Below, in pieces: positions 3,767-54,347 of a stretch of DNA of 64,000 nt; position 1 is the stretch's first letter, and each line of letters starts with the position of its first letter. The notes under the pieces were generated by a model that made no database searches, had not been told where the DNA came from, and was given only the letters and a program-made list of their open reading frames with translations. Position numbers and translations under genes: made by a program. This DNA comes from an uncultured Prevotella sp. GTDB lineage: Bacteria > Bacteroidota > Bacteroidia > Bacteroidales > Bacteroidaceae. The stretch covers positions 12,710 to 76,709 of the forward strand of contig CAJOIX010000004.1 in assembly GCA_905234815.1 (NCBI GenBank), read 5' to 3'.

Positions 3767-3854
3767 CAAAAGCATAGGTTTTGACGTCCAAAAGGATAGC
3801 TTTTGCCGGCCAAAAGCATAGCTTTCGGAGCCCCAAAGCATAGGTTTTGAAAAC
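3767..3854. repeat. 88-nt element, 4 x 22-nt units (locus A)
   Basis: Units CAAAAGCATAGGTTTTGACGTC / CAAAAGGATAGCTTTTGCCGGC / CAAAAGCATAGCTTTCGGAGCC / CCAAAGCATAGGTTTTGAAAAC. Confidence 0.95.
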
Positions 3855-11249: not shown

Positions 11250-12740
11250 TTATTCTTCTTTTGGAACATACTGAAAAGCACCGAGATCGGGAGCATCTCC
11301 GCGCGCAAGTCCTGTACGGTCAATGGCGGGACAGGTTTCTATATTTGCCTTACCGCGTGCCGTACTGTTCTCTGCCAACGAGAAATCGTAGATCAGATTT
11401 TCAGTATCGAACTCGAGGAAATGGTGGTAAGAGCCAAAATCTGCATCGGTGATATCTTCCAGTTCCGTATCGACAAAGTTTGCCTGTTCGCTCTCGGCTG
11501 GCGCCACGGTACGCAGCAGGCAGTTTTCAAAGCGATAGTTGAAATCGTTGCCGTTGTCCTGGCGGTTGCCCATCACCACATCGTCGGCATAGCCTGTGAT
11601 GAGCGAGTTCTGACAAAGCATCTGGACGAGAGCGTTGTTGCCATTGGAGAACCGCAGCGCTGCGCCCCGATTGGCGTCGAGCGGATAGAACTGAGCCAGT
11701 GTGGAGCCATTCACCGTGGCGCTGCCGCCATCGACAAAGAGACAATCGTTCAGCGTATTGCTGATTTGTGTGTTCACCAAAGATATGTTCGCACCAACGG
11801 AGAGGAGCCCATAGCCCTGACAGTTGTGAATGGTCACCTGTTCGAGCGCAAGATGCTGCGCCTGGGTATCGGTGGGCTGATCGACAATGATGCCGTCGAA
11901 GGTACTGTGAATGTCGGTATAGGTCAGGCGGTTGCCGACTGATGAATCCGAGAAATGCAGCCCCCGCCATTGTCCTGGCACGCGATCGTAAGGCAGATAG
12001 TCGAACATATTGTCGATTCGCTGACCGCGCAGGATTACATTCTGTTCGGCCGTACCCTCGCATATAAGCGTTCCGTTGACATTGATGCCGGCATCGCTAT
12101 CGAAGTAGAGCGTGGTACCAGCGGCGATGGTGAGCGTTGTATTTTCTGCCACGGTAATGTTTTCTTTCACAAGCATCGGTTTCTCCGAACTGATGGTGGT
12201 GTTGGCCGTTATATTATACGACGGCACTTCCACGGCATCCCACACGCTGGCAGTCAGCGGCAATCGCTGCGTGGTGCCACCAGAAAGCGAGAAAATCAGG
12301 TCGTCGGTAATGGCCACGGGCTCATCGCTGCCGGAGGGATAACTGGTCAGTTCCACAAACACACGGATGCTGTCGCCCGAAGCAATTTCCACATCCTGCA
12401 CGCGGTAGCCACTGGTTGGACCGAGATACCAACCGTCAACATTCACGCGGAAACCGGTTTGATTGCCTTGGGCCAAGCGAATCTCGCTGCATACGATGCC
12501 TTCGTCTGTAGGGTTATAGATCCAAATATCTTTGCGAGCCGAAGGAACGCCGGCGAAAACTGTGCCTAAATCAACTTGCTCTACGCCAAAAACGAGTGTT
12601 CTATTGCCGGCTGGCCCATACGAATCGGTGGATGAGCAGGCCGTCAGCATGGAACAAACGACAAACAAAACAAGCGGCAGGCGCTTCAGCACACAGGGGC
12701 GGAAGCGTGAGGCAAGCAGAGATATATTATTTTTCAACAT
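11250..12740 (-). CDS. Putative lipoprotein with right-handed beta-helix-like repeats
   Basis: Lipobox SMLTACSS; 'ENTTLTIAAGTTLYFDSDAGINVNGTLICEGTAEQNVILRG' parallel beta-helix pattern. Confidence 0.75.
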   Translation of the reverse strand: MLKNNISLLASRFRPCVLKRLPLVLFVVCSMLTACSSTDSYGPAGNRTLVFGVEQVDLGTVFAGVPSARKDIWIYNPTDEGIVCSEIRLAQGNQTGFRVNVDGWYLGPTSGYRVQDVEIASGDSIRVFVELTSYPSGSDEPVAITDDLIFSLSGGTTQRLPLTASVWDAVEVPSYNITANTTISSEKPMLVKENITVAENTTLTIAAGTTLYFDSDAGINVNGTLICEGTAEQNVILRGQRIDNMFDYLPYDRVPGQWRGLHFSDSSVGNRLTYTDIHSTFDGIIVDQPTDTQAQHLALEQVTIHNCQGYGLLSVGANISLVNTQISNTLNDCLFVDGGSATVNGSTLAQFYPLDANRGAALRFSNGNNALVQMLCQNSLITGYADDVVMGNRQDNGNDFNYRFENCLLRTVAPAESEQANFVDTELEDITDADFGSYHHFLEFDTENLIYDFSLAENSTARGKANIETCPAIDRTGLARGDAPDLGAFQYVPKEE

Positions 12741-12839: not shown

Positions 12840-12927
12840 CAAAAGCATAGCTTTTAGGTGGCAAAAGCATAGCTTTCAGGCCGCAAAAGCATAGCTTTCG
12901 GAGGATAAAAGCATAGCTTTTGGAAAA
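12840..12927. repeat. 88-nt element, 4 x 22-nt units (locus B)
   Basis: CAAAAGCATAGCTTTTAGGTGG / CAAAAGCATAGCTTTCAGGCCG / CAAAAGCATAGCTTTCGGAGGA / TAAAAGCATAGCTTTTGGAAAA. Confidence 0.95.
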
Positions 12928-12934
12928 CGCGAGT

Positions 12935-13591
12935 TCAGTGTTTTGTAATCATCAGAGTTTCAACGAGTTGTGCAAGGTCGATATTTTTGAAGTTCGGACA
13001 CGTCAGATGGCATCGGTCTTTAATCACTTCGGCGGGCAGCGAAGTGGTCAGTCCGACCACGTGTGTGCCGGCATCCCACGCCGATTTCAGGCCGTTCAGA
13101 CTGTCTTCGAAAGCAATACACTGTTCAGGTTTCAGCCCCAAGCGCGCCGCACCGACCAGATAGCACTCGGGGGCAGGCTTGCTCTCGTGGAAATCTTCCG
13201 ACGAAAGCACAAAATCCACCAACGAGCGCAATTCGGGATGCTGTCGATAGACGCTCTGCATCTTGGGCTGATTGCTGCTGGTGACCACACACGACTGGTA
13301 TCCAGCGCGGCGGATGCTTTCGGCAAATTCAACAAATCCTTCCACCCAAGGCATTGGCATATCGCGCTCAAAGGCATTCAGCTCAGCCGTGATGCGCTCT
13401 TGCACGGAAGGATCGGGGAAGAAACGATTATATATCTCAGTAAGCGTCTGGCCCTTTATCTTCCGAAAAAGCTCAGGCTCTGAAGGGAAGGCGCGACGCA
13501 TCTGGTCGCCCCAAAACTGATCGTAGCCGGATTCTGTATCGATTATAACCCCGTCAAGATCAAAAAGAAATCCTACTGTTTGATGTTCCAT
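12935..13591 (-). CDS. HAD-superfamily phosphatase, beta-phosphoglucomutase-like
   Basis: FLFDLDGVIIDTE, VVTSSNQ, ESKPAPECYLVGAARLG, CIAFEDSLNGLKSAWDAG. Confidence 0.93.
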   Translation of the reverse strand: MEHQTVGFLFDLDGVIIDTESGYDQFWGDQMRRAFPSEPELFRKIKGQTLTEIYNRFFPDPSVQERITAELNAFERDMPMPWVEGFVEFAESIRRAGYQSCVVTSSNQPKMQSVYRQHPELRSLVDFVLSSEDFHESKPAPECYLVGAARLGLKPEQCIAFEDSLNGLKSAWDAGTHVVGLTTSLPAEVIKDRCHLTCPNFKNIDLAQLVETLMITKH

Positions 13592-18099: not shown

Positions 18100-18187
18100 G
18101 GAGAGGTGCTCGAGTGGTTGAAGAGGCACGCCTGGAAAGCGTGTAACCGGCAAAACCGGTTCGCAGGTTCGAATCCTGTTCTCTCCG
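18100..18187 (+). tRNA. tRNA-Ser(GGA)
   Basis: Acceptor GGAGAGG/TCTCTCC, anticodon loop CTGGAAA, long variable arm, GGTTCGAATCC T-arm. Confidence 0.95.
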
Positions 18188-18306
18188 CAAAGCGACAGAA
18201 GAGGATTCAAAGCTTTGAGGAAAAAAGCGAATCCTGTTCTCTCCGCAAAGCGACAGAAGAGGATTCAAAGCTTTGAGGAAAAAAGCGAATCCTGTTCTCT
18301 CCGCAA
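18170..18306 (+). repeat. 58-nt tandem repeat that reiterates the tRNA-Ser 3' end
   Basis: GAATCCTGTTCTCTCCGCA at 18171, 18229 and 18287; the intervening AAGCGACAGAAGAGGATTCAAAGCTTTGAGGAAAAAAG is duplicated. Confidence 0.95.
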
Positions 18307-25918: not shown

Positions 25919-25920
25919 CT

Positions 25921-25953
25921 GTCAGAATATTGTCAGAATATTGTCAGAATATT
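25921..25953. repeat. 3 x 11-nt tandem repeat GTCAGAATATT
   Basis: Three perfect copies at 25921, 25932 and 25943. Confidence 0.98.
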
Positions 25954-40132: not shown

Positions 40133-40202
40133 AGACACGGCAGTCGCACTCTTTCTTCGCGCCGCCATATCGCTGAAAATCAACCCTTTACGAAACACAT
40201 TT

Positions 40203-40290
40203 CAAAAGCTATGCTTTTGCCTTCCGAAAGCATAGCTTTTACACGCCAAAAGCATAGGTTTGGGAGCCCAAAACCTATGCTTTTGTAATT
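40203..40290. repeat. 88-nt element, 4 x 22-nt units (locus C)
   Basis: CAAAAGCTATGCTTTTGCCTTC / CGAAAGCATAGCTTTTACACGC / CAAAAGCATAGGTTTGGGAGCC / CAAAACCTATGCTTTTGTAATT. Confidence 0.95.
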
Positions 40291-40430: not shown

Positions 40431-40778
40431 ATGAATTTTTTATTAATCACCGTATTGTTGACGGCTGCTACCTTGGTGCTCGGCGCTTACGTCGTGGCCA
40501 AGCTGATCGGTCCCCGTTCGTACAATCCGTTGAAGGGTGAACCCTACGAGTGCGGTATCCCCACGCGCGGCAGCTCTTGGCTACCGCTGAGCGTGGGCTA
40601 CTACTTGTTCGCCATCCTCTTCCTGATGTTCGACATTGAGACCGTATTGCTCTATCCCTGGGCAGTCGTTGTGAAACAGTTTGGCCCAATGGCTCTGGTG
40701 AGCATTGGTTTCTTCCTGGCAGTACTTGTTTTAGGCCTGGCTTATGCTTGGCGGAAAGGAGCATTAGAATGGAAGTAA
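40431..40778 (+). CDS. nuoA: NADH-quinone oxidoreductase subunit A
   Basis: YECGIPTRGSSWLPLSVGYYLFAILFLMFDIETVLLYPWA. Confidence 0.96.
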   Translation: MNFLLITVLLTAATLVLGAYVVAKLIGPRSYNPLKGEPYECGIPTRGSSWLPLSVGYYLFAILFLMFDIETVLLYPWAVVVKQFGPMALVSIGFFLAVLVLGLAYAWRKGALEWK

Positions 40779-41485
40779 GAAAGCCCAGTATCAAAAACAT
40801 TCCTTACGATGAGTTTAAGGATAACGCCGGCCTGCAGCAAATCATCGATGAGCTGCACGAAGGCGGTGTCAACCTTGTAGTCGGCTCATTAGACCAAGCC
40901 ATCAACTGGGGCCGCGCCAACTCGCTCTGGTCGCTCACCTTCGCCACCTCTTGCTGCGGCATTGAGTTCATGGCAGTAGGTTGCGCCCGCTACGACTTCT
41001 CGCGCTTCGGATTTGAAGTAACCCGAAATTCTCCCCGTCAGGCCGACCTCATCATGTGCGCCGGCACCATCACCCACAAGATGGCCCCCGCACTGAAGCG
41101 TCTCTACGACGAAATGGCCGAGCCCAAATACGTCATCGCCGTGGGCGGTTGCGCCATCTCGGGCGGACCCTTCAAGTCGAGCTATCACGTAGTGAAAGGC
41201 ATTGAAGAAATCGTGCCCGTCGATGTATTCATCCCAGGATGCCCTCCCCGCCCCGAAGCCATTCTCTACGGCATGATGCAACTGCAGAGAAAAGTGAAAG
41301 TTGAGAAATTCTTCGGTGGTGCCAACCACAAGCAAACCAAGGCAGAGCGCGAGCTCGGCGTGAGCAACGAAGAGCTCACCTACGGCCGCAAGAAGCCCAT
41401 CGTGGTGACCGACGTGCCCGAAGAATTCGTACAAGAAATGCAAAAAAGCAGCCAGGAGCAAGCAGGAAAGGAGGAAGCAAAATGA
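40769..41485 (+). CDS. nuoB: NADH-quinone oxidoreductase subunit B
   Basis: TSCCGIEFMA, VMCAGTITHKMAP-type, VGGCAISGGPF, PGCPPRPEAILYG. Confidence 0.97.
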   Translation: MEVRKPSIKNIPYDEFKDNAGLQQIIDELHEGGVNLVVGSLDQAINWGRANSLWSLTFATSCCGIEFMAVGCARYDFSRFGFEVTRNSPRQADLIMCAGTITHKMAPALKRLYDEMAEPKYVIAVGGCAISGGPFKSSYHVVKGIEEIVPVDVFIPGCPPRPEAILYGMMQLQRKVKVEKFFGGANHKQTKAERELGVSNEELTYGRKKPIVVTDVPEEFVQEMQKSSQEQAGKEEAK

Positions 41486-43047
41486 AACTCAATCCAACCC
41501 TATTAGCATTTGATCAGTTTGCCGCAGAAATGGCCAAGCTGAAAAACGAGAAAGGTTTCGATTTCCTCGTGACCATTATTGGCGAAGACTTTGGTGCAGA
41601 AGAAGGTCTCGGATGTATCTATATCCTTGAGAACACCCAGACCCAAGAGCGCACCAGCGTGAAAACCCTTGCCAAGCAACTCGGCGAAGACTATCTCATA
41701 CCCTCAGTCATAAACATCTGGGCAGGCGCCAATCTGCTGGAACGCGAAGTCTATGACTTCTATGGAATAAAATTCCTCGGCCACCCCGATATGCGCCGCC
41801 TGTTCCTGCGCAGCGATTTCAAGGGATACCCCTTCAGAAAAGACTGGCAGTTCAACGATGAATATACACTGCAAGACGACGACGAGCCCAACTACGGCTA
41901 CGAATTCTCGCTCACCAAAGACGGCAAGCTGCAGACCAAGCAGAACCAGCTCTTTACCGACGACGAATACGTGGTGAACATTGGCCCGCAGCACCCATCC
42001 ACCCACGGTGTGCTCCGCCTGCAAACCGTGCTCGACGGCGAAAAAGTGAAGCGCATCTATCCCCACCTGGGCTATATCCATCGCGGCATTGAAAAGATGT
42101 GCGAAGCATACACCTACCCTCAAACACTCGCACTGACCGACCGTCTGAACTACCTCTCGGCCATGATGCACCGCCACGCTCTCGTGGGAGTGATTGAAGA
42201 AGCCCTGGAAGTTGAGCTTACCGATCGCATCAAATACATCCGCACCATCATGGATGAACTGCAGCGACTCGACTCACACTTGCTGTACTGCGGATGCTGC
42301 GCACAAGACCTTGGCGCACTCACAGCATTCCTCTACTGTATGCGCGACCGCGAACACGTGCTCAATGTGATGGAAGAAACCACTGGTGGACGCCTCATTC
42401 AGAACTACTACCGCATCGGCGGACTGCAGGACGATATTGACGAGAACTTCGTCAAGAACGTGAAAGACCTCTGCAAATATCTCCGTCCAATGATTCAGGA
42501 ATACATGGATGTGTTCGGCGATAACGTGATCACCCACAATCGTTTTGAAGGCGTTGGCCCAATGAACCAGGCAGACTGCATCGCCTACGGCGTGACAGGC
42601 CCTGCCGGGCGTGCAGCAGGTTGGGGTAACGATGTTCGCAAGAACCATCCCTACGATATGTACGACAAAGTGGAATGGCGCCAAATCACGCTCACAGGAG
42701 CCGATTCGATGGACCGTTACCTCGTGCACATTGAGGAAATGTATCAGAGCCTCGACATTATCGAACAGCTCATCGACAACATTCCCGAAGGCGACTTCTA
42801 CGTAAAGCAGAAGCCCATCATCAAGGTGCCCGAAGGACAATGGTACTTCTCCGTCGAAGGAGCCAGCGGCGAATTCGGTGTGTACCTCGACTCGCGTGGC
42901 GACAAGAGCCCCTACCGACTCAAGCTGCGCCCCATGGGCCTGTCGCTCGTAGGAGCACTCGACCCCATGCTGCGCGGACAGAAAGTGGCCGACCTTGTTG
43001 CTGCCGGAGCAGCCATCGACTTCGTCATACCTGACATCGACAGATAA
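41482..43047 (+). CDS. nuoCD: NADH-quinone oxidoreductase subunit C/D fusion
   Basis: NuoC-like EREVYDFYGIKFLGHPDMRRLFL then NuoD NIGPQHPSTHGVLRL in one ORF. Confidence 0.96.
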   Translation: MKLNPTLLAFDQFAAEMAKLKNEKGFDFLVTIIGEDFGAEEGLGCIYILENTQTQERTSVKTLAKQLGEDYLIPSVINIWAGANLLEREVYDFYGIKFLGHPDMRRLFLRSDFKGYPFRKDWQFNDEYTLQDDDEPNYGYEFSLTKDGKLQTKQNQLFTDDEYVVNIGPQHPSTHGVLRLQTVLDGEKVKRIYPHLGYIHRGIEKMCEAYTYPQTLALTDRLNYLSAMMHRHALVGVIEEALEVELTDRIKYIRTIMDELQRLDSHLLYCGCCAQDLGALTAFLYCMRDREHVLNVMEETTGGRLIQNYYRIGGLQDDIDENFVKNVKDLCKYLRPMIQEYMDVFGDNVITHNRFEGVGPMNQADCIAYGVTGPAGRAAGWGNDVRKNHPYDMYDKVEWRQITLTGADSMDRYLVHIEEMYQSLDIIEQLIDNIPEGDFYVKQKPIIKVPEGQWYFSVEGASGEFGVYLDSRGDKSPYRLKLRPMGLSLVGALDPMLRGQKVADLVAAGAAIDFVIPDIDR

Positions 43048-43149
43048 AATAATTGAACAATTTGACAATTTGACTATTTCGCCGTTCGACCATCAGAAAT
43101 CGGGAAAATAGAAAAATCGTAAAATTAAAAGAATCGTAAAATACACATC

Positions 43150-44235
43150 ATGTTTGATTTCTCAATAGTAACACAATGGATCCACAGTCTGCTGACAGTC
43201 ACCCTCGGGTTGGCTACAGGCTGGGCTGTGTTCATTGAGTGTGTGCTCGTGGGAGTAGTCATCCTGACTGCCTATGCCCTGATTGCCATGCTCATGATCT
43301 ATATGGAACGTAAGGTCTGTGCCTTCTTCCAGTGCCGCCTCGGTCCTACCCGCGTAGGTCCATGGGGCGTGTTCCAAATCATTGCCGACGTGCTGAAAAT
43401 GCTCATCAAGGAGATTTTCATCGTCGATCGCGCTGATAAACTGCTCTATTGCCTGGCTCCCTTCCTCGTAGTCATCGCCTCGGTGGGCACCTTCTCATTC
43501 CTCCCTTGGAACAAAGGTGCCGAGGTGCTCGACTTCAATGTTGGAGTATTCCTCATCACCGCCATCTCTTCCATCGGCGTTGTGGGCATCTTCCTCGCAG
43601 GTTGGGCCAGTAACAACAAGTATTCAGTGGTGTCGGCCATGCGCGGAGCCGTGCAAATGATCTCCTACGAGATGTCGCTCGGACTCACACTCATAGCCAT
43701 GGTCATTCTCACAGGCACGATGCAAGTCAGCACCATTGTTGACCAGCAAACAGGTCCATGGAACTGGCTGATCATCCAAGGACATATTCCAGCCGTGATT
43801 GCCTTCTTCACCTTCCTCATTGCAGGAAATGCAGAGGCCAACCGTGGTCCGTTCGACTTGGCAGAAGCCGAGAGCGAGCTCACCGCCGGTTACCACACTG
43901 AATATTCCGGTATGGGCTTTGGCTACTATTATCTGGCCGAGTTCATGAACCTCTTCGTAATCTCCGGTCTTGCCGTTACCATCTTCCTGGGCGGCTGGGC
44001 TCCAGTGAACATTGGCATCGAAGCGTTCGACCAAGTGATGAACTACATCCCGGGCATTGTATGGTTCATGGGCAAGACCCTGGCCATTGTCTGGCTGCTC
44101 ATGTGGGTTCGCTGGACATATCCCCGTCTGCGCATTGACCAAATTCTGAAACTTGAATGGAAATACCTCATGCCACTGGCACTCATCAACATTGTACTGA
44201 TGACCGTGTGCGTAGCCATGGGTTGGACCCTCTAA
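43150..44235 (+). CDS. nuoH: NADH-quinone oxidoreductase subunit H
   Basis: MERKVCAFFQCRLGPTRVGPWGVFQIIADVLKMLIKE; FDLAEAESELTAGYHTEYSGM. Confidence 0.97.
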   Translation: MFDFSIVTQWIHSLLTVTLGLATGWAVFIECVLVGVVILTAYALIAMLMIYMERKVCAFFQCRLGPTRVGPWGVFQIIADVLKMLIKEIFIVDRADKLLYCLAPFLVVIASVGTFSFLPWNKGAEVLDFNVGVFLITAISSIGVVGIFLAGWASNNKYSVVSAMRGAVQMISYEMSLGLTLIAMVILTGTMQVSTIVDQQTGPWNWLIIQGHIPAVIAFFTFLIAGNAEANRGPFDLAEAESELTAGYHTEYSGMGFGYYYLAEFMNLFVISGLAVTIFLGGWAPVNIGIEAFDQVMNYIPGIVWFMGKTLAIVWLLMWVRWTYPRLRIDQILKLEWKYLMPLALINIVLMTVCVAMGWTL

Positions 44236-44252
44236 AAGGAAAGGATACGAAA

Positions 44253-44783
44253 ATGAAAAATAACACATATTTCTCAGAATTGGGCAGTGCCGTAAAAACA
44301 CTTGCCACGGGATTGAAGGTGACACTCATCGAGTTCTTCACCAAGAAATCGACCGAACAGTATCCCGAAAATCGTAAGACAACACTCCACATCTCAAAGC
44401 GCCACCGCGGACGCCTGGTCTTCACTCGCAACGAGGACGGCTCGTACAACTGTACTGCCTGCACCCTGTGCGAAAAAGCCTGTCCCAATGGCACCATCAA
44501 GATCACATCGGAGATGCGCGAAGACCCCGAAACAGGCAAAAAGAAACGCGTGCTGCTCGACTATCAGTACGACCTTGGCGACTGTATGTTCTGCCAACTC
44601 TGTACCAACGCCTGCAACTTCAACGCCATCCACTTTGTCAACGATTTTGAAAACAGCGTATTCAAGCGCGACAGCCTTGTGCTGCATCTTGATAAGGAAA
44701 CCTATGATGGAGGCTCACTGCCTAATCTCCTCAACGGCGGAGCAGACTTAACCATCGGTCAGTTCAACACTAAAATAAAATAA
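44253..44783 (+). CDS. nuoI: NADH-quinone oxidoreductase subunit I
   Basis: Two 4Fe-4S motifs CTACTLCEKACP and CMFCQLCTNAC. Confidence 0.97.
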   Translation: MKNNTYFSELGSAVKTLATGLKVTLIEFFTKKSTEQYPENRKTTLHISKRHRGRLVFTRNEDGSYNCTACTLCEKACPNGTIKITSEMREDPETGKKKRVLLDYQYDLGDCMFCQLCTNACNFNAIHFVNDFENSVFKRDSLVLHLDKETYDGGSLPNLLNGGADLTIGQFNTKIK

Positions 44784-44788
44784 TCGAT

Positions 44789-45310
44789 ATGACAGATATA
44801 ATTGTTTTTGGCATGTTGGCCGTAGTCATCATCGGCTCAGCCATCATGTGCGTCGCCACAACACGCATCATGCGAGCAGCAACATTCCTGCTGTTTGTGC
44901 TGTTTGGCGTGGCTGGCATATATTTCCTGTTAGACTACACCTTCCTCGGTGCAGCGCAGGTGAGCATCTACGCAGGTGGCATCACCATGCTCTATGTGTT
45001 TGCCATACAACTCGTTAGCAAGAAAACGCTGCAAGGTGCCACTGAAAAGATTCAGCTGAAGCGCTTCATCCCGGGAGCCGTCATCGCGCTCGTGGGACTG
45101 GCCACCGTATTGTATGTACTCGTTAAAAGTGAAATGTTCCATCTGCTGACCTCCATGAAAGGTGGAGAAGTAAGCATGAACTTAATTGGTAACGCCCTTG
45201 TTGGTGCCGACAAGTACCAATATGTGCTGCCATTTGAGTTCATCTCGCTCTTCCTCTTGGCCTGCATCATTGGTGGCATTATGGTAGCAAGAAAGGAGGA
45301 CAACGCATGA
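44789..45310 (+). CDS. nuoJ: NADH-quinone oxidoreductase subunit J
   Basis: FLGAAQVSIYAGGITMLYVFAIQLV; operon position. Confidence 0.95.
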   Translation: MTDIIVFGMLAVVIIGSAIMCVATTRIMRAATFLLFVLFGVAGIYFLLDYTFLGAAQVSIYAGGITMLYVFAIQLVSKKTLQGATEKIQLKRFIPGAVIALVGLATVLYVLVKSEMFHLLTSMKGGEVSMNLIGNALVGADKYQYVLPFEFISLFLLACIIGGIMVARKEDNA

Positions 45311-45621
45311 TACCCGTAGGATGTTATCTCGCTTTCAGCGCAGTGCTGTTCTTCATCGGCGTGTTCGGTTTTGTCACTCGCCGCAACCTGCTTGCCATGC
45401 TCATCTCGGTGGAACTCATACTCAATGCGGTTGACATGAATTTTGCCATCTTCAACCGCTTCATTTTCCCCCAGCATCAGGCATTGGACGGTTTCTTCTT
45501 CACTCTCTTCTCCATTGGTGTGAGCGCCGCAGAAACCGCTGTGGCCATCGCCATTATTCTGAATGTTTACCGCAATTTCAAGAGCGATCAAGTTGATCGA
45601 ATTCAAGAAATGAAGAATTAA
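45307..45621 (+). CDS. nuoK: NADH-quinone oxidoreductase subunit K
   Basis: RRNLLAMLISVELILNAVDMNF; SAAETAVAIAIILNVYR. Confidence 0.96.
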   Translation: MIPVGCYLAFSAVLFFIGVFGFVTRRNLLAMLISVELILNAVDMNFAIFNRFIFPQHQALDGFFFTLFSIGVSAAETAVAIAIILNVYRNFKSDQVDRIQEMKN

Positions 45622-45639
45622 TAAAACCTAACAGTAAAA

Positions 45640-47595
45640 ATGGATTATTCATTCACATTATTGATCCTTCTTCTTCCCGCTCTTTCGTTCCTGTTCATTG
45701 GATTGGCGGATTCGAAGATTTCGCATAAGACAGCTGGTCTGATTGGCACTTCGGTGCTTGCTCTGGTCACGCTCATCTCTTATGCCACTGCATTTACTTA
45801 TTTCTCGGCCGGTCGTGGAGCCGACGGGACCTTCACTACACTGGTCCCCTATAACTTCACATGGCTGCCGCTGGGCAATCTTCACTTCGACTTGGGTATC
45901 CTCCTGGATCCAATCTCCGTGATGATGCTCATTGTAATCTCTACAGTTTCGCTCATGGTGCATATCTATTCGTTTGGATATATGCACGGCGAAAAAGGCT
46001 TCCAGCGTTACTACGCTTTCCTGTCGCTGTTCACCATGTCTATGCTCGGTCTGGTATTGGCCACCAACATTTTCCAGATGTATCTCTTCTGGGAACTTGT
46101 GGGTGTGAGCTCCTATCTGCTCATCGGCTTCTACTATCCGCTCCAAGCAGCCGTACATGCAGCCAAGAAAGCATTCATCGTGACGCGCTTTGCCGATATG
46201 TTCTTCCTCATCGGTATCCTCATTTTCGGCTATTACACCGACTCGTTCAGTTTCTCGTTTGCCGGCAATGTGGAACTCATGGAAGGTGCCACTCCTTTCA
46301 TAACTGGCAGTGCAGCCAAGGCAGTTGCTGCCGGCGAATTTATCCTGCCCACAGCCTTGACCCTGATGTTCATTGGCGGTGCAGGTAAGAGTGCCATGTT
46401 CCCGCTGCACATCTGGTTGCCCGATGCCATGGAAGGCCCCACACCAGTCAGCGCGTTGATTCACGCTGCCACAATGGTTGTGGCTGGTGTGTTCCAGGTG
46501 GCTCGTATGTTCCCGCTGTGGATAGAGTACGCTCCCCAAGCTATGTCCATCATCGTATGGGTGGGTGTGTTCACCGCATTCTATGCTGCCGCAGTGGCTT
46601 GCGCCCAGAGCGATATCAAGCGTGTACTGGCCTTCTCCACCATTTCGCAGATTGCCTTCATGATGGTGGCACTGGGTGTTTGTCTGCCTGGCCATGAAGC
46701 CGTGCTCGACAATCATGCCCAACTGGGCTACATGGCTGGTATGTTCCACCTCTTCACCCACGCCATGTTCAAGGCGTGTCTGTTCCTTGGAGCCGGCTGC
46801 ATTATCCACGCCGTACACTCCAACGAGATGGCACTCATGGGCGGACTGCGCAAATATATGCCCATCACCCACATCACGTTCCTGATTTCCTGTCTGGCCA
46901 TTGCAGGTATTCCTCCATTCTCGGGATTCTTCTCGAAGGATGAAATCCTGACCGCCGCCATGCAGTACAGCCCCGTGGTGGGTTGGATTATGACGGGCGT
47001 TGCAGCCATGACGGCTTTCTATATGTTCCGCCTGTACTACGGCATCTTCTGGGGCACAGAGAACAAAGAGGCCCACGCGCATCACACTCCGCACGAAGCG
47101 CCTTGGACAATGACCTTCCCGCTGATATTCCTCTCGCTGGTTACCATCTTCGCGGGCTTCATTCCTTTTGGCCATTTCGTGAGCGCCAGCGGTCAGCTCT
47201 ACGACATTCATCTCGACTGGACCGTGGCCGGCACCTCGATTGTGGTGGCTATTCTGAGCATTGCGCTTGCCACCTATATATATAAAGGTGAGCGTCAGCC
47301 CGTGGCCGATCGGCTGTATAAGACTTTCCCACGCCTGCACCGTGCTGCCTACAAGCGTTTCTATCAAGACGAGCTGTGGCAGTTCATGACCCACAAGGTG
47401 ATATTCCGCTGTGTTTCAATGCCCATTGCTTGGTTCGACCGCCACATCATCGACGGCACGTTCAATTTTGCCGCTTGGTGTGCCAACGAGGCCGGCGAGA
47501 GCATTCGTCCCTGGCAGAGTGGCGATGTGCGCAAGTATGCCATCTGGTTCATCACCGGCGCCGTGGCACTGACACTGATTTTGTTAAGCATTTAA
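45640..47595 (+). CDS. nuoL: NADH-quinone oxidoreductase subunit L
   Basis: FWELVGVSSYLLIGFYY, GKSAMFPLHIWLPDAMEGPTPVSALIHAATMV. Confidence 0.97.
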   Translation: MDYSFTLLILLLPALSFLFIGLADSKISHKTAGLIGTSVLALVTLISYATAFTYFSAGRGADGTFTTLVPYNFTWLPLGNLHFDLGILLDPISVMMLIVISTVSLMVHIYSFGYMHGEKGFQRYYAFLSLFTMSMLGLVLATNIFQMYLFWELVGVSSYLLIGFYYPLQAAVHAAKKAFIVTRFADMFFLIGILIFGYYTDSFSFSFAGNVELMEGATPFITGSAAKAVAAGEFILPTALTLMFIGGAGKSAMFPLHIWLPDAMEGPTPVSALIHAATMVVAGVFQVARMFPLWIEYAPQAMSIIVWVGVFTAFYAAAVACAQSDIKRVLAFSTISQIAFMMVALGVCLPGHEAVLDNHAQLGYMAGMFHLFTHAMFKACLFLGAGCIIHAVHSNEMALMGGLRKYMPITHITFLISCLAIAGIPPFSGFFSKDEILTAAMQYSPVVGWIMTGVAAMTAFYMFRLYYGIFWGTENKEAHAHHTPHEAPWTMTFPLIFLSLVTIFAGFIPFGHFVSASGQLYDIHLDWTVAGTSIVVAILSIALATYIYKGERQPVADRLYKTFPRLHRAAYKRFYQDELWQFMTHKVIFRCVSMPIAWFDRHIIDGTFNFAAWCANEAGESIRPWQSGDVRKYAIWFITGAVALTLILLSI

Positions 47596-47613
47596 ATGAA
47601 GGAGGACTAAGAT

Positions 47614-49095
47614 ATGAATATACTCACATTGTTTGTTGTCATTCCTGTAGTGATGCTTTTGTGCCTTTGGCTGTCGCGCAACTTGAATCAAGTGCGTGCA
47701 GTCATGGTGGCAGGTTCGTCCTGCCTGCTGGCCCTGAGCATCTGGCTGACAATTTATTTTGTTCAACAGCGCAATGCCGGCAATACCGACGTGATGCTGT
47801 TGCAGTATAGTGTTGATTGGTTCAAGCCTTTGCATATAGCCTATGCCATCGGTGTTGACGGCATCTCGGTGGTGATGTTGCTACTTTCGAGCATCATTGT
47901 CTTCACCGGCACGTTTGCCTCGTGGCAGCTGAAGCCGCTCACGAAGGAGTATTTCCTTTGGTTCACCCTGCTCTCCACGGGTGTGTATGGCTTCTTCATC
48001 TCCATCGACCTGTTCACCATGTTCATGTTCTACGAGGTGGCACTCATCCCTATGTACCTGCTGATTGGTGTATGGGGCAGCGGTGCCAAGGAGTATTCTG
48101 CCATGAAGCTCACACTGATGCTCATGGGTGGTTCGGCTCTCTTGATACTCGGCATCTTGGGCATCTATTTCTTCAGCGGTGCCCAGACCATGAATGTGCT
48201 TGAGATTGCTGCCCTGCACAATATCGACCCCGATATTCAGAAGGTGTTCTTCCCCTTCATTTTCATTGGCTTTGGTGTGCTGGGAGCCATGTTCCCGTTC
48301 CACACATGGAGCCCCGACGGTCATGCTTCGGCGCCTACGGCTGTGTCGATGCTTCATGCTGGTGTGCTGATGAAGTTGGGAGGTTACGGCTGCTTCCGCG
48401 TGGCCATGTACCTGCTGCCTGAGGCTGCCCACGATTTGGCATGGATTTTCCTCATCCTGACCACCATCTCCGTGGTCTATGGTGCGCTCTCTGCCTGCGT
48501 GCAGACCGACCTGAAGTATATCAATGCCTACTCGTCGGTGAGCCACTGCGGCCTGGTGCTCTTTGCCCTGCTCATGATGACCCAGACAGCTTGCTCGGGT
48601 GCCATCCTGCAGATGCTGTCACACGGTCTGATGACGGCCCTCTTCTTCGCCCTGATTGGTATGATCTATGGTCGTACCCACACCCGCGATGTGCGCCGTT
48701 TGGGCGGACTGATGAAGATCATGCCGTTCCTGGCTGTCGGCTATCTGATTGCCGGTCTGGCCAATCTCGGCTTGCCAGGATTCTCTGGTTTCACCGCTGA
48801 GATGACCATCTTCGTTGGTTCGTTCGAAAACAACGATGTGTTTCACCGTGTGTGCACCATCATTGCTTGTACCTCTATCGTGGTAACGGCTGTTTACATC
48901 CTGCGTGTGGCTGGTAAGATATTGATGGGCAAGGTGGCCGATCCTCACTACGAGGAGCTCACCGATGCTACTTGGGACGAGCGTGTGGCTGTGGCCTGCC
49001 TCATTTTCTGCGTAGCCGGTTTAGGTGCCACTCCGTTCATCTTCAAGCCTATCATCGACAATGCAGTTGCACCGATCCTCGTAAGCTTAATGTAA
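47614..49095 (+). CDS. nuoM: NADH-quinone oxidoreductase subunit M
   Basis: FYEVALIPMYLLIGVWG; MFPFHTWSPDGHASAPTAVSMLHAGVLMKLGGYG. Confidence 0.97.
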   Translation: MNILTLFVVIPVVMLLCLWLSRNLNQVRAVMVAGSSCLLALSIWLTIYFVQQRNAGNTDVMLLQYSVDWFKPLHIAYAIGVDGISVVMLLLSSIIVFTGTFASWQLKPLTKEYFLWFTLLSTGVYGFFISIDLFTMFMFYEVALIPMYLLIGVWGSGAKEYSAMKLTLMLMGGSALLILGILGIYFFSGAQTMNVLEIAALHNIDPDIQKVFFPFIFIGFGVLGAMFPFHTWSPDGHASAPTAVSMLHAGVLMKLGGYGCFRVAMYLLPEAAHDLAWIFLILTTISVVYGALSACVQTDLKYINAYSSVSHCGLVLFALLMMTQTACSGAILQMLSHGLMTALFFALIGMIYGRTHTRDVRRLGGLMKIMPFLAVGYLIAGLANLGLPGFSGFTAEMTIFVGSFENNDVFHRVCTIIACTSIVVTAVYILRVAGKILMGKVADPHYEELTDATWDERVAVACLIFCVAGLGATPFIFKPIIDNAVAPILVSLM

Positions 49096-49156
49096 AATGT
49101 AAAAATTTAAAGAATTAAAGATTTTAAATTCTTAAATTCCTAAATTAGAATACACA

Positions 49157-50587
49157 ATGAACTATTCACAGTTTTTAAATATGATTCCAGAGGCAACGCT
49201 TGTTGCCGTGCTGCTCATCGTGTTCTTCGCCGATTTGTTTTCGTCGAAGGATAGCGAGCGCCGCTGGCTCAATCCGCTGGTTTGCGCGTTGCTGGCACTG
49301 CAGATTGTACCCTGTGCGCTGGCCGAACCGGCAAGTGCCTTCGCCGGAATGTACGTCGCTACGGCAGCAGCCAACGTGATGAAAGTGATTCTCACCGCAG
49401 GCACACTCATTGTGCTGATTATGTCGCGTTCGTGGCTGAACGATTCGCGTGCAGCCCGTAACGAAGGTGAATTCTACGCACTCATCTGCTCTACCCTCTT
49501 GGGTATGTACATGATGATGTCGAGCGGTCATTTCCTGCTGTTCTTCCTCGGTCTGGAAATGGCTTCAGTGCCGATGGCCTGCCTCGTGGCAATGGACAAA
49601 TGGAAGAAGATCTCGGCCGAGGCCGGCGCCAAATATGTGCTCATGGCTGTGTTCTCCTCGGGTGTGATGCTCTTCGGCCTGTCGTATATCTACGGCAGCA
49701 CCGGTACGCTCTACTTTGAGGATGTGGCCAACGCCCTGCCACTTTCCCCCGTGACCATCTTGGGTCTCGTATTCTTCTTTGCCGGCATGGGCTTCAAACT
49801 CTCGCTGGTTCCCTTCCATTTCTGGACAGCCGACACCTATCAGGGTGCCCCCACTCCGGTGACGGGCTATCTCTCGGTCATCTCCAAGGGAGCTGCCGCT
49901 TTCGCCCTGTGCACCATCTTCGTGCACGTGTTCGGCTCAATGGTACACCAGTGGGAAGGCCTGCTCTATATCACCATCGTGCTCTCCATCACCGTGGGTA
50001 ACCTTTTCGCCATGCGTCAGTCGGAGCTGAAGCGCTTCATGGCCTTCTCCTCTATCTCGCAGGCTGGTTACATCATGCTGGCCGTGGTGGGCAACTCAGC
50101 CGCTGGCCTCACCGCACTGATGTACTACACGCTCATCTACGTGGTGGCCAACATGGCCGTGTTCACCGTGATCAGCGCAGTGGAAGAGAACAACCAGGGC
50201 AAGACCGAAATAGACGACTACAACGGATTCTACCAGACCAACCCGCGCCTGTCGTTTCTGATGACATTGGCCCTCTTCTCGCTGGCCGGTATCCCGCCGT
50301 TTGCTGGTATGTTCTCCAAGTTCTTCGTGTTCATGGCAGCCGCCGAGCATGGTTCGGTATGGGCCTACGCCGTGGTGTTCATCGCACTGCTCAACACCGT
50401 GGTGTCGCTCTACTACTATCTGCTCATTGTCAAAGCCATGTATATCAAGAAGAGCGACAGCCCGCTGCCCTACTTCCGCAGCAACTGCAACACACGCCTG
50501 GCGCTCGCCCTCTGCACCGTAGGCATCGCGCTGTTCGGCATCGGCTCGTGCATCTACGAGTGGCTCTCGCAGTCCGCAAGTCTTTAA
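49157..50587 (+). CDS. nuoN: NADH-quinone oxidoreductase subunit N
   Basis: FKLSLVPFHFWTADTYQGAPTPVTGYLSVISKGAA. Confidence 0.97.
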   Translation: MNYSQFLNMIPEATLVAVLLIVFFADLFSSKDSERRWLNPLVCALLALQIVPCALAEPASAFAGMYVATAAANVMKVILTAGTLIVLIMSRSWLNDSRAARNEGEFYALICSTLLGMYMMMSSGHFLLFFLGLEMASVPMACLVAMDKWKKISAEAGAKYVLMAVFSSGVMLFGLSYIYGSTGTLYFEDVANALPLSPVTILGLVFFFAGMGFKLSLVPFHFWTADTYQGAPTPVTGYLSVISKGAAAFALCTIFVHVFGSMVHQWEGLLYITIVLSITVGNLFAMRQSELKRFMAFSSISQAGYIMLAVVGNSAAGLTALMYYTLIYVVANMAVFTVISAVEENNQGKTEIDDYNGFYQTNPRLSFLMTLALFSLAGIPPFAGMFSKFFVFMAAAEHGSVWAYAVVFIALLNTVVSLYYYLLIVKAMYIKKSDSPLPYFRSNCNTRLALALCTVGIALFGIGSCIYEWLSQSASL

Positions 50588-50673: not shown

Positions 50674-50761
50674 CAAAAGCATAGCTTTCGGGTTGTAAAA
50701 GCATAGCTTTTGCACGCTAAAAGCATAGCTATTGGAAGGCAAAAGCATAGCTTTTGGAAAA
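50674..50761. repeat. 88-nt element, 4 x 22-nt units (locus D)
   Basis: CAAAAGCATAGCTTTCGGGTTG / TAAAAGCATAGCTTTTGCACGC / TAAAAGCATAGCTATTGGAAGG / CAAAAGCATAGCTTTTGGAAAA. Confidence 0.95.
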
Positions 50762-50797: not shown

Positions 50798-51048
50798 AAC
50801 ATCGAAAGACACGAAAGAAAACGAATGATTTATTCTCATAGAAAATTCATGTTTTTAGCGTTTTTCGATGTTGAAAAAATATAAATCGGCTATCGGTTGT
50901 TTGATTGAACATCGAAAGAAACGAAAGAAACAAATGATTTATTCTCATAGAAAATTCGTGTTTTTAGTGTTTTTCGATGTTAGAAAAAATATAAACCTGC
51001 TATCGGTTGTTTGATTTAACATCGAAAGAAACGAAAGAAACGAATGAT
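50798..51048 (+). repeat. ~110-nt palindromic repeat array 1 (two full units and one truncated)
   Basis: AACATCGAAAG... starts at 50798, 50908 and 51018; each full unit contains AACATCGAAA...TTTTTCGATGTT arms. Confidence 0.93.
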
Positions 51049-53982: not shown

Positions 53983-54056
53983 ATGTTTTATTACGAAAAG
54001 TGCGTAATTCGATGGTTGACAACGGGAAATTTTGAACGATTAAGATTGTTTGAGTT

Positions 54057-54347
54057 AACATCCAAAGACACGAAAGAAACGAATGATTCATTCTCATAGA
54101 GGATTCGTGCTTTTAGCGTTTTGCGATGTTGAAAAAAATATAAATCTGCTGTCGGTTGTTTGATTTAGCATCGAAAGAAACGAAAGAAACGAATGATTTA
54201 TACTCATAGAAAATTCGTGTTTTTTAGCGTTTTCGATGTCGAAAAAAATTATATATGCTATCGTTGTTTGATTTAACATCGAAAGAAACGAAAGAAACGA
54301 ATGACCTATTCTCATGGAGAATTCGTGTTTTTAGCGTTTTTCGATGT
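54057..54347 (+). repeat. ~110-nt palindromic repeat array 2 (three units)
   Basis: Unit starts at 54057, 54167 and 54275; same sequence family as 50798-51048. Confidence 0.93.

Follow-up and report, generated by a model that had tools for sequence, protein, structure and literature searches.

Dyad-symmetric elements with 22-bp pitch and strong predicted curvature in Prevotella-group bacteria: possible supercoil-domain sites

A dispersed element, typically of four 22-bp dyad units, is found four times in a 64-kb window (the whole stretch of DNA analysed) of an uncultured Prevotella sp. and is repeated at even distances in the rest of the genome that was scanned. It displays a global dyad, IHF-consensus flanks, extreme predicted curvature and a mostly intergenic placement, and related species carry it in dialects of their own. 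These structural findings are strong; from them we infer protein binding, a pinning of supercoils and a domain function. The reading favoured here, tentatively, is a bent nucleoprotein site that structures the nucleoid or its supercoil domains, rather than an RNA or a conventional MITE.

Anatomy, symmetry and predicted curvature

The window carries the following features.

3767..3854, no strand: element A, four 22-bp dyad units; intergenic, downstream of a DUF4270 gene
12840..12927, no strand: element B, four 22-bp dyad units; intergenic, 3′ of a HAD hydrolase gene (12935-13591, minus strand) and 5′ of a gene at 11250-12740 (minus strand)
40178..40190, plus strand: IHF-consensus-like site AATCAACCCTTTA, flanking element C, 60 bp from the element centre, which is the position typical of the family
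40203..40290, no strand: element C, four 22-bp dyad units, the first and last inverted; directly upstream of nuoA
40431..50587, plus strand: nuo (complex I) operon, complete, between elements C and D, which are 10.5 kb apart
50674..50761, no strand: element D (the focal element), four 22-bp dyad units; directly downstream of nuoN

Each of the four elements consists of four 17-nt cores at an exact 22-bp pitch, as the original prediction had located them. The sequence AAAAGCATAGCTTTT, with three or fewer mismatches allowed, gives 25 matches versus 2.8 expected from shuffling. The units had been described as head-to-tail, which is inaccurate. Single units are often inverted (ATA or TAT centre), and the first and fourth units tend to be opposite (U1 mostly TAT, U4 mostly ATA), resulting in a global dyad.

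The window also contains other repeats. Tandem 110-bp repeats (AACATCGAAAGAAACGAAAGAAACGAATGATTTATTCTCATAG...TTTTCGATGTT, itself an inverted repeat) form two arrays at 50798-51048 and 54046-54347, which flank an AraC-type regulator and two unknown genes; all five copies in 700 kb of the genome sit here. Further tandem repeats, at 18170-18306 and 25920-25953, are 2.4 perfect copies of a 58-bp unit and three copies of the 11-bp TGTCAGAATAT.

The host genome (G000) is a 1.62-Mb assembly, 82% complete, of which 700 kb in large contigs was scanned. There are 57 elements in this 700 kb and 52 of them have exactly four 17-nt cores in perfect 22-bp register. In the others the units number 3, 5 or 6, or the register is degenerate. 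The claim of exactly four units holds for the host and for P. intermedia-type genomes but not for the family as a whole. Four is the number in the host and in P. falsenii, P. histicola has mostly 5, Hoylesella saccharolytica 5–7, the genome G179 5, and P. disiens 3–5. Variation in unit number, which had been named beforehand as a sign against the prediction, is seen between species and not within the host genome.

A gap-free alignment of the host elements gives the profile CCGNTTTY-[U1]-YYYTC-[U2]-CACGC-like-[U3]-GARRG-[U4]-RAAANCGG. Position-specific spacer information totals 8.13 bits, versus a maximum of 6.15 among 2000 within-element shuffles, thus the conservation of spacers by position is real. 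It had been taken to mark dispersal of the whole block as a unit, but it is largely a matter of the global dyad symmetry, and common descent is not its sole source. The profile of spacers and flanks correlates with its own reverse complement at r=0.92, and spacer 1 with the reverse complement of spacer 3 at r=0.94. Within single elements, spacers 1 and 3 show 1.88 complementary matches of 5 versus a population average of 2.25. Because complementarity within the element is not above average, the spacer symmetry looks like a binding-site preference and not like self-complementarity.

The predicted extent of 88 nt proved too short. By flank conservation the host element has a length of about 165–185 bp, and beyond the core a symmetric motif, AAAANCGGTTTNTAANNNNYTGAWWWTCARNNNNTTNNAA, reaches ~81 bp from the centre. 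AT density is phased at ~11–12 bp, and the flank peaks lie half a turn off the register of the core tracts. Two elements, G000:C1:51411 and G000:C5:6097, form a diverged subfamily in which a similarity of 0.6–0.8 runs 100–200 bp past the core, unlike other pairs.

The flanks were scored with WATCARNNNNTTR, the IHF consensus of E. coli. AAAANCGGTTTNTAANNNNYTGAWWWTCARNNNNTTNNAA contains this consensus in both directions. With the strict consensus, 28 sites are found within 120 bp of the 57 centres and 0 in control stretches 280–400 bp away, and near the host elements it is ~15-fold enriched over the genome. The positions are symmetric, at ±60/±72 bp in the host and ±48 bp in P. falsenii and in G123, a genome of two replicons (2.67 Mb) with ~200 copies and a conserved block of ~185 bp. 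P. bivia and P. histicola show the same set of distances. The host genome encodes five HU/IHF-family domains. Two of these are adjacent at G000:C16:74329-74923, the second in a 340-aa frame, and are candidates for a flank-binding protein.

A4 or T4 tracts in the unit arms repeat at 11-bp intervals, and the proposal that a 22-bp phasing sets the dyads on one DNA face is supported. Curvature was predicted by the Bolshoy dinucleotide wedge model and, more simply, by an AA-wedge model. The median predicted bend per 84 bp is 123 degrees (Bolshoy) or 97 degrees (AA-wedge), at the 99.8–99.9th genome percentile; shuffled elements give 29 degrees versus the median of 123. Ranked by modelled curvature, the first 20 sites of the 700 kb include 17 elements and the first 40 include 33, and the elements of G123 and P. 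bivia show similar predicted curvature. A change of pitch beyond one or two bases removes the predicted bend. A 21-bp pitch bends relaxed DNA most in the model and 22 bp slightly less; 22 bp would be optimal at a presumed 11 bp per turn.

Distribution, dialects and the relation to PINSR

The family was searched with the pattern (AAAAGN5CTTTTN7)x3, by which divergent arms would be missed. Of the 299 genomes in the same genus-level group, 62 match it, among them 42 of the 131 good ones, and the reversed control is nearly empty. Named carriers are P. histicola, P. falsenii, P. disiens, P. bivia, P. brunnea, Hoylesella saccharolytica, Xylanibacter rarus, X. brevis and Segatella baroniae. With this arm pattern no element was detected in the relative G300 (99% complete). 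Outside the family, Odoribacter lunatus (L176, L187, L192) carries dyad arrays of 22-bp pitch. A stricter pattern applied outside the genus matched G490 as the sole member of the order, with centres such as GTCTAAC. These arrays from outside the Prevotellaceae are possibly convergent or transferred.

The unit centre differs between species. It is GCATAGC in the host, and GGTTACC, GGGCTGC, CGGCTC, GGGCATC and GACCGTC are found elsewhere. The arms, the pitch, the bend and often the IHF-like flanks persist while the centres change. Such a constant frame around a changing centre, homogenised within species, is to be expected from a co-evolving binding protein or from concerted copying. P. bivia (L209, L218) also shows weaker elements at C3:40846, 58587 and 223032, in which AAAAATAAATTATTTTT and then an AT-rich inverted repeat replaces the fourth unit; these fall at regular spacing.

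The element had been thought to match no named family. This is in part incorrect, since PINSR appears to have the same architecture. PINSR is a 188-bp intergenic repeat of unknown function with 177–184 copies in P. intermedia (Naito et al., DNA Res 2015/16, PMC4755523). It is also reported from P. nigrescens, P. falsenii and P. disiens and was called distinct from MITEs (PMC4755523). The report gives one 188-bp consensus, for four related species, and says nothing of units within it, of a dyad or curvature, of spacing or of function (PMC4755523), and no mention of PINSR was found in further papers by literature search.

Two species that are positive by PINSR PCR, P. falsenii and P. disiens, as well as G123, carry 22-bp-pitch dyads with IHF-like flanks, in four units (3–5 in P. 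disiens), and P. falsenii has the centres of G123. The sizes are alike, ~188 bp for PINSR, ~185 bp in G123 and ~165–185 bp for the window's element. The window's GCATAGC centres differ from the CGGCTC/CCTACGC/CAATAGG of PINSR-type genomes, the same architecture in another dialect, and the window's element differs further in its heterogeneous units and even ~10-kb spacing. We regard PINSR as one of the family's dialects because P. falsenii and G123 share the architecture, a judgement based on likeness of architecture. As judged from the pattern matches, the family is far wider than published PINSR.

Spacing, copying and the competing explanations

Spacing was measured on long stretches of the host genome, G123 and P. 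bivia. The 47 distances between host elements have a median of 10.4 kb, a minimum of 5.2 kb and a CV of 0.49 versus 0.9 in simulation, and 32 of the 47 fall in the range 8–13 kb. Placement at random, either uniform or in intergenic slots, gave an expected 16–18 gaps below 5.2 kb, where 0 were observed, and was as regular in 0 of 5000 runs. Elements lie evenly along every host contig read. In P. bivia, 400 kb contain 15 elements with a mean gap of 26.6 kb (CV 0.33, P<0.0001); for the 12 strict elements, with three weak ones dropped, the CV is 0.59 (P=0.04) and the minimum gap remains significant (P=0.003). The PINSR-type G123 is near random (CV 0.84, minimum 1.7 kb). A 99-column weight matrix found no degenerate copies in the long gaps of the host genome. 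The long gap inside the window was considered as a mobile island and this was rejected, as ordinary core genes are found there (rmuC, the nqr operon, deformylase).

Elements are mostly intergenic. The 3′ sides of genes are favoured (239 vs 171, p=0.0009), and elements are depleted between divergent promoters (10/56 vs 31/91, p=0.04), although some do sit there. The neighbouring genes are diverse (DUF4270, HAD hydrolase, nuo genes), and no recurrent neighbour family stood out as a candidate for a binding protein. Genes similar to nuoA and to SecDF each adjoin an element in both the host and G123, a sharing within chance. In G123, the element at C2:53525 is upstream of the nuoA-like gene and may be a position shared with element C. 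None of 22 conserved adjacent gene pairs compared across species, a small and underpowered set, contains an element. At the 3′ site of nuoN the element is absent in 29 related loci, including those of the element-bearing G336 and G204; several of these loci, G179 among them, end at a contig edge there.

Pairs of elements with 96–100% identical cores are found between unrelated flanks, and homology stops near ±41 bp in the host and ~±95 bp in G123. Such near-identical cores at unrelated loci mean that the elements spread or convert, in agreement with the earlier suggestion that the whole block dispersed. The strongest rival is a selfish, non-autonomous, MITE-like repeat whose 22-bp sites are bound by an unknown transposase or recombinase, with target immunity producing even spacing without a host function. 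The 22-bp sites in multiples recall the ends of Tn7 and Mu. The arrest of homology at the element edge, the patchy distribution and the turnover of position at nuoN are consistent with such a repeat. So are the imperfect inverted-repeat ends, TGTAAAkATA...TATTTACA, which only the G123 copies show, and the PINSR positions, of which about three-quarters are common to two P. intermedia strains (PMC4755523). However, no target-site duplication is indicated, there being no excess of shared left and right k-mers at any offset pair for k 3–9 in 44 copies of G123 and 57 of the host, and no autonomous partner with the units was noticed in the 700 kb. Under immunity with saturation, gaps should crowd just over the minimum; they peak at 8–13 kb instead. 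Even spacing is seen in the heterogeneous host elements and not in the near-identical, young-looking copies of G123, the reverse of a simple expectation. We regard the selfish repeat as somewhat unlikely, and favour the supercoil-domain site over it. The two are not exclusive, since a repeat that became domesticated would be both copied and spaced.

A search for a RAYT-like transposase had been suggested. No RAYT (Y1_Tnp) was found in the host genome (82% complete), the complete G123, G117 or G012, and RAYT mobility is unsupported; Y1_Tnp matches do occur in other carriers (G104, G052, G262 and P. bivia). A phage or plasmid origin was rejected on the near-absence from viral contigs, in which only 4 of 2.9 million gave matches, three of the 4 with PINSR-type units.

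Gyrase or topo IV could load strongly at the element, as at E. coli BIME-2 or the Mu strong gyrase site, and the repeats would then even out supercoiling, a reading that is itself a variant of the supercoil-domain one. The gyrase motif extends symmetrically over ~130 bp, with its GC modulation phased at 10.75 bp, and BIME-2 behave like gyrase sites that act independently of transcription (PMC6379681). The element is likewise symmetric, with AT tracts phased at 11 bp and a preference for gene 3′ ends. But the gyrase motif has a distinct unphased centre, whereas the phasing here runs through the centre. Gyrase is also conserved, while the centres of the units vary between species. This explanation is improbable. 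Very improbable is an operator array for a local or global transcription factor: operator-sized dyads in intergenic DNA would fit a regulon, but the spacing is even, gene orientation is indifferent, the neighbours are diverse and the space between divergent promoters is depleted.

The least probable of the readings is a transcribed array of RNA hairpins acting as terminator, mRNA stabiliser or processing site, which the original prediction had offered beside a DNA-binding or nucleoid-type role. Neighbouring inverted units can pair and some copies fold well (element C, −42.8 kcal/mol, z −7.9; the focal element, z −4.0), and the 3′-of-gene bias is a mild one in its favour, but the fold of element A is hardly more stable than that of shuffled sequence (z −1.9), elements occur between divergent genes too, and centres such as GGCTG and CGGCT in other species are not self-complementary. 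The array is rejected by its lack of covariation. Core positions 7 and 11 form a pair in 161 of 208 units versus 163 expected under independence, with 47 one-sided breaks and 2 double changes, and the other within-unit pairs behave alike; one-sided changes are as common as independence predicts. Pairing within units does not appear to be under selection. The DNA-binding role is the better of the two.

Proposed function and comparison with known systems

The supercoil-domain reading would work as follows. Each of the four in-phase dyads is probably bound by a dimer of a putative species-specific DNA-binding protein, all four on one face of a predicted intrinsically curved segment with its A4/T4 tracts every 11 bp. 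An HU/IHF-family protein at the symmetric flanking sites would add bends. Such sites, every ~10 kb here and wider apart in P. bivia, may fix the tips of plectonemic loops, the action of topology enzymes, or both, and the chromosome would be partitioned into supercoil domains.

Even spacing, extreme predicted curvature, IHF-consensus flanks, the five HU/IHF-family domains of the host genome, dyad symmetry, the lack of RNA covariation, the preference for gene 3′ sides and the placement of C and D around the nuo operon argue for this reading. Against it are the uneven spacing in G123, the position at nuoN that is not conserved in relatives, and a 22-bp pitch that is one above the model optimum. 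In single-molecule work, plectoneme tips were pinned by intrinsic curvature over ~70 bp, for which a single 75-bp curved insert was enough (PMC6301789). The patchy distribution (62 of 299, none detected in G300, by a pattern that would miss divergent arms) also counts against the reading and means that the element is no essential universal organiser.

What determines the ~10-kb supercoil domains of bacteria is an old open question, and the boundaries known so far are mainly those made by transcription units and by diffuse binding of proteins. It is possible, though more doubtful than the reading of the element itself, that these evenly spaced, bent, dyad-symmetric nucleoprotein sites are a new class of chromosome-organising element, widespread in Prevotella-group bacteria, which sets supercoil-domain size with a co-evolving species-specific binder. 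If so, a discrete element every ~10 kb, with the strongest bend predicted in the genome, would make domain size testable by adding, moving or deleting sites, and PINSR, described in 2015 without a function, would gain a structure, a wide family and a hypothesis.

Among known elements, the BrickBuilt MITE of Porphyromonas gingivalis is also a dispersed Bacteroidales element with a short tandem minisatellite (23 nt) (PMC4596501). Its unit AGAYCATARTATCCTCTCRTRTG is not palindromic and its TIRs are common to IS elements (PMC4596501). The unit is unrelated to the one described here, and BrickBuilt was rejected as its identity. The E. coli BIME/RIB elements are similar in having clustered intergenic palindromes with an IHF-type site, a high copy number and a 3′-of-gene bias, and the element shares the RIB-type feature of a putative IHF-consensus site beside palindromes. 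What sets the present element apart is its sequence, a strict phasing of 22 bp, the dyad that spans it, the strong bend predicted for it and its regular spacing. The sites of matS/MatP, parS/ParB, KOPS and SlmA/Noc are short repeated sites of chromosome-organising proteins, which are single and largely confined to or polarised around ter or ori. In contrast, the elements described here are multi-site, of predicted bend, and even along every contig read.
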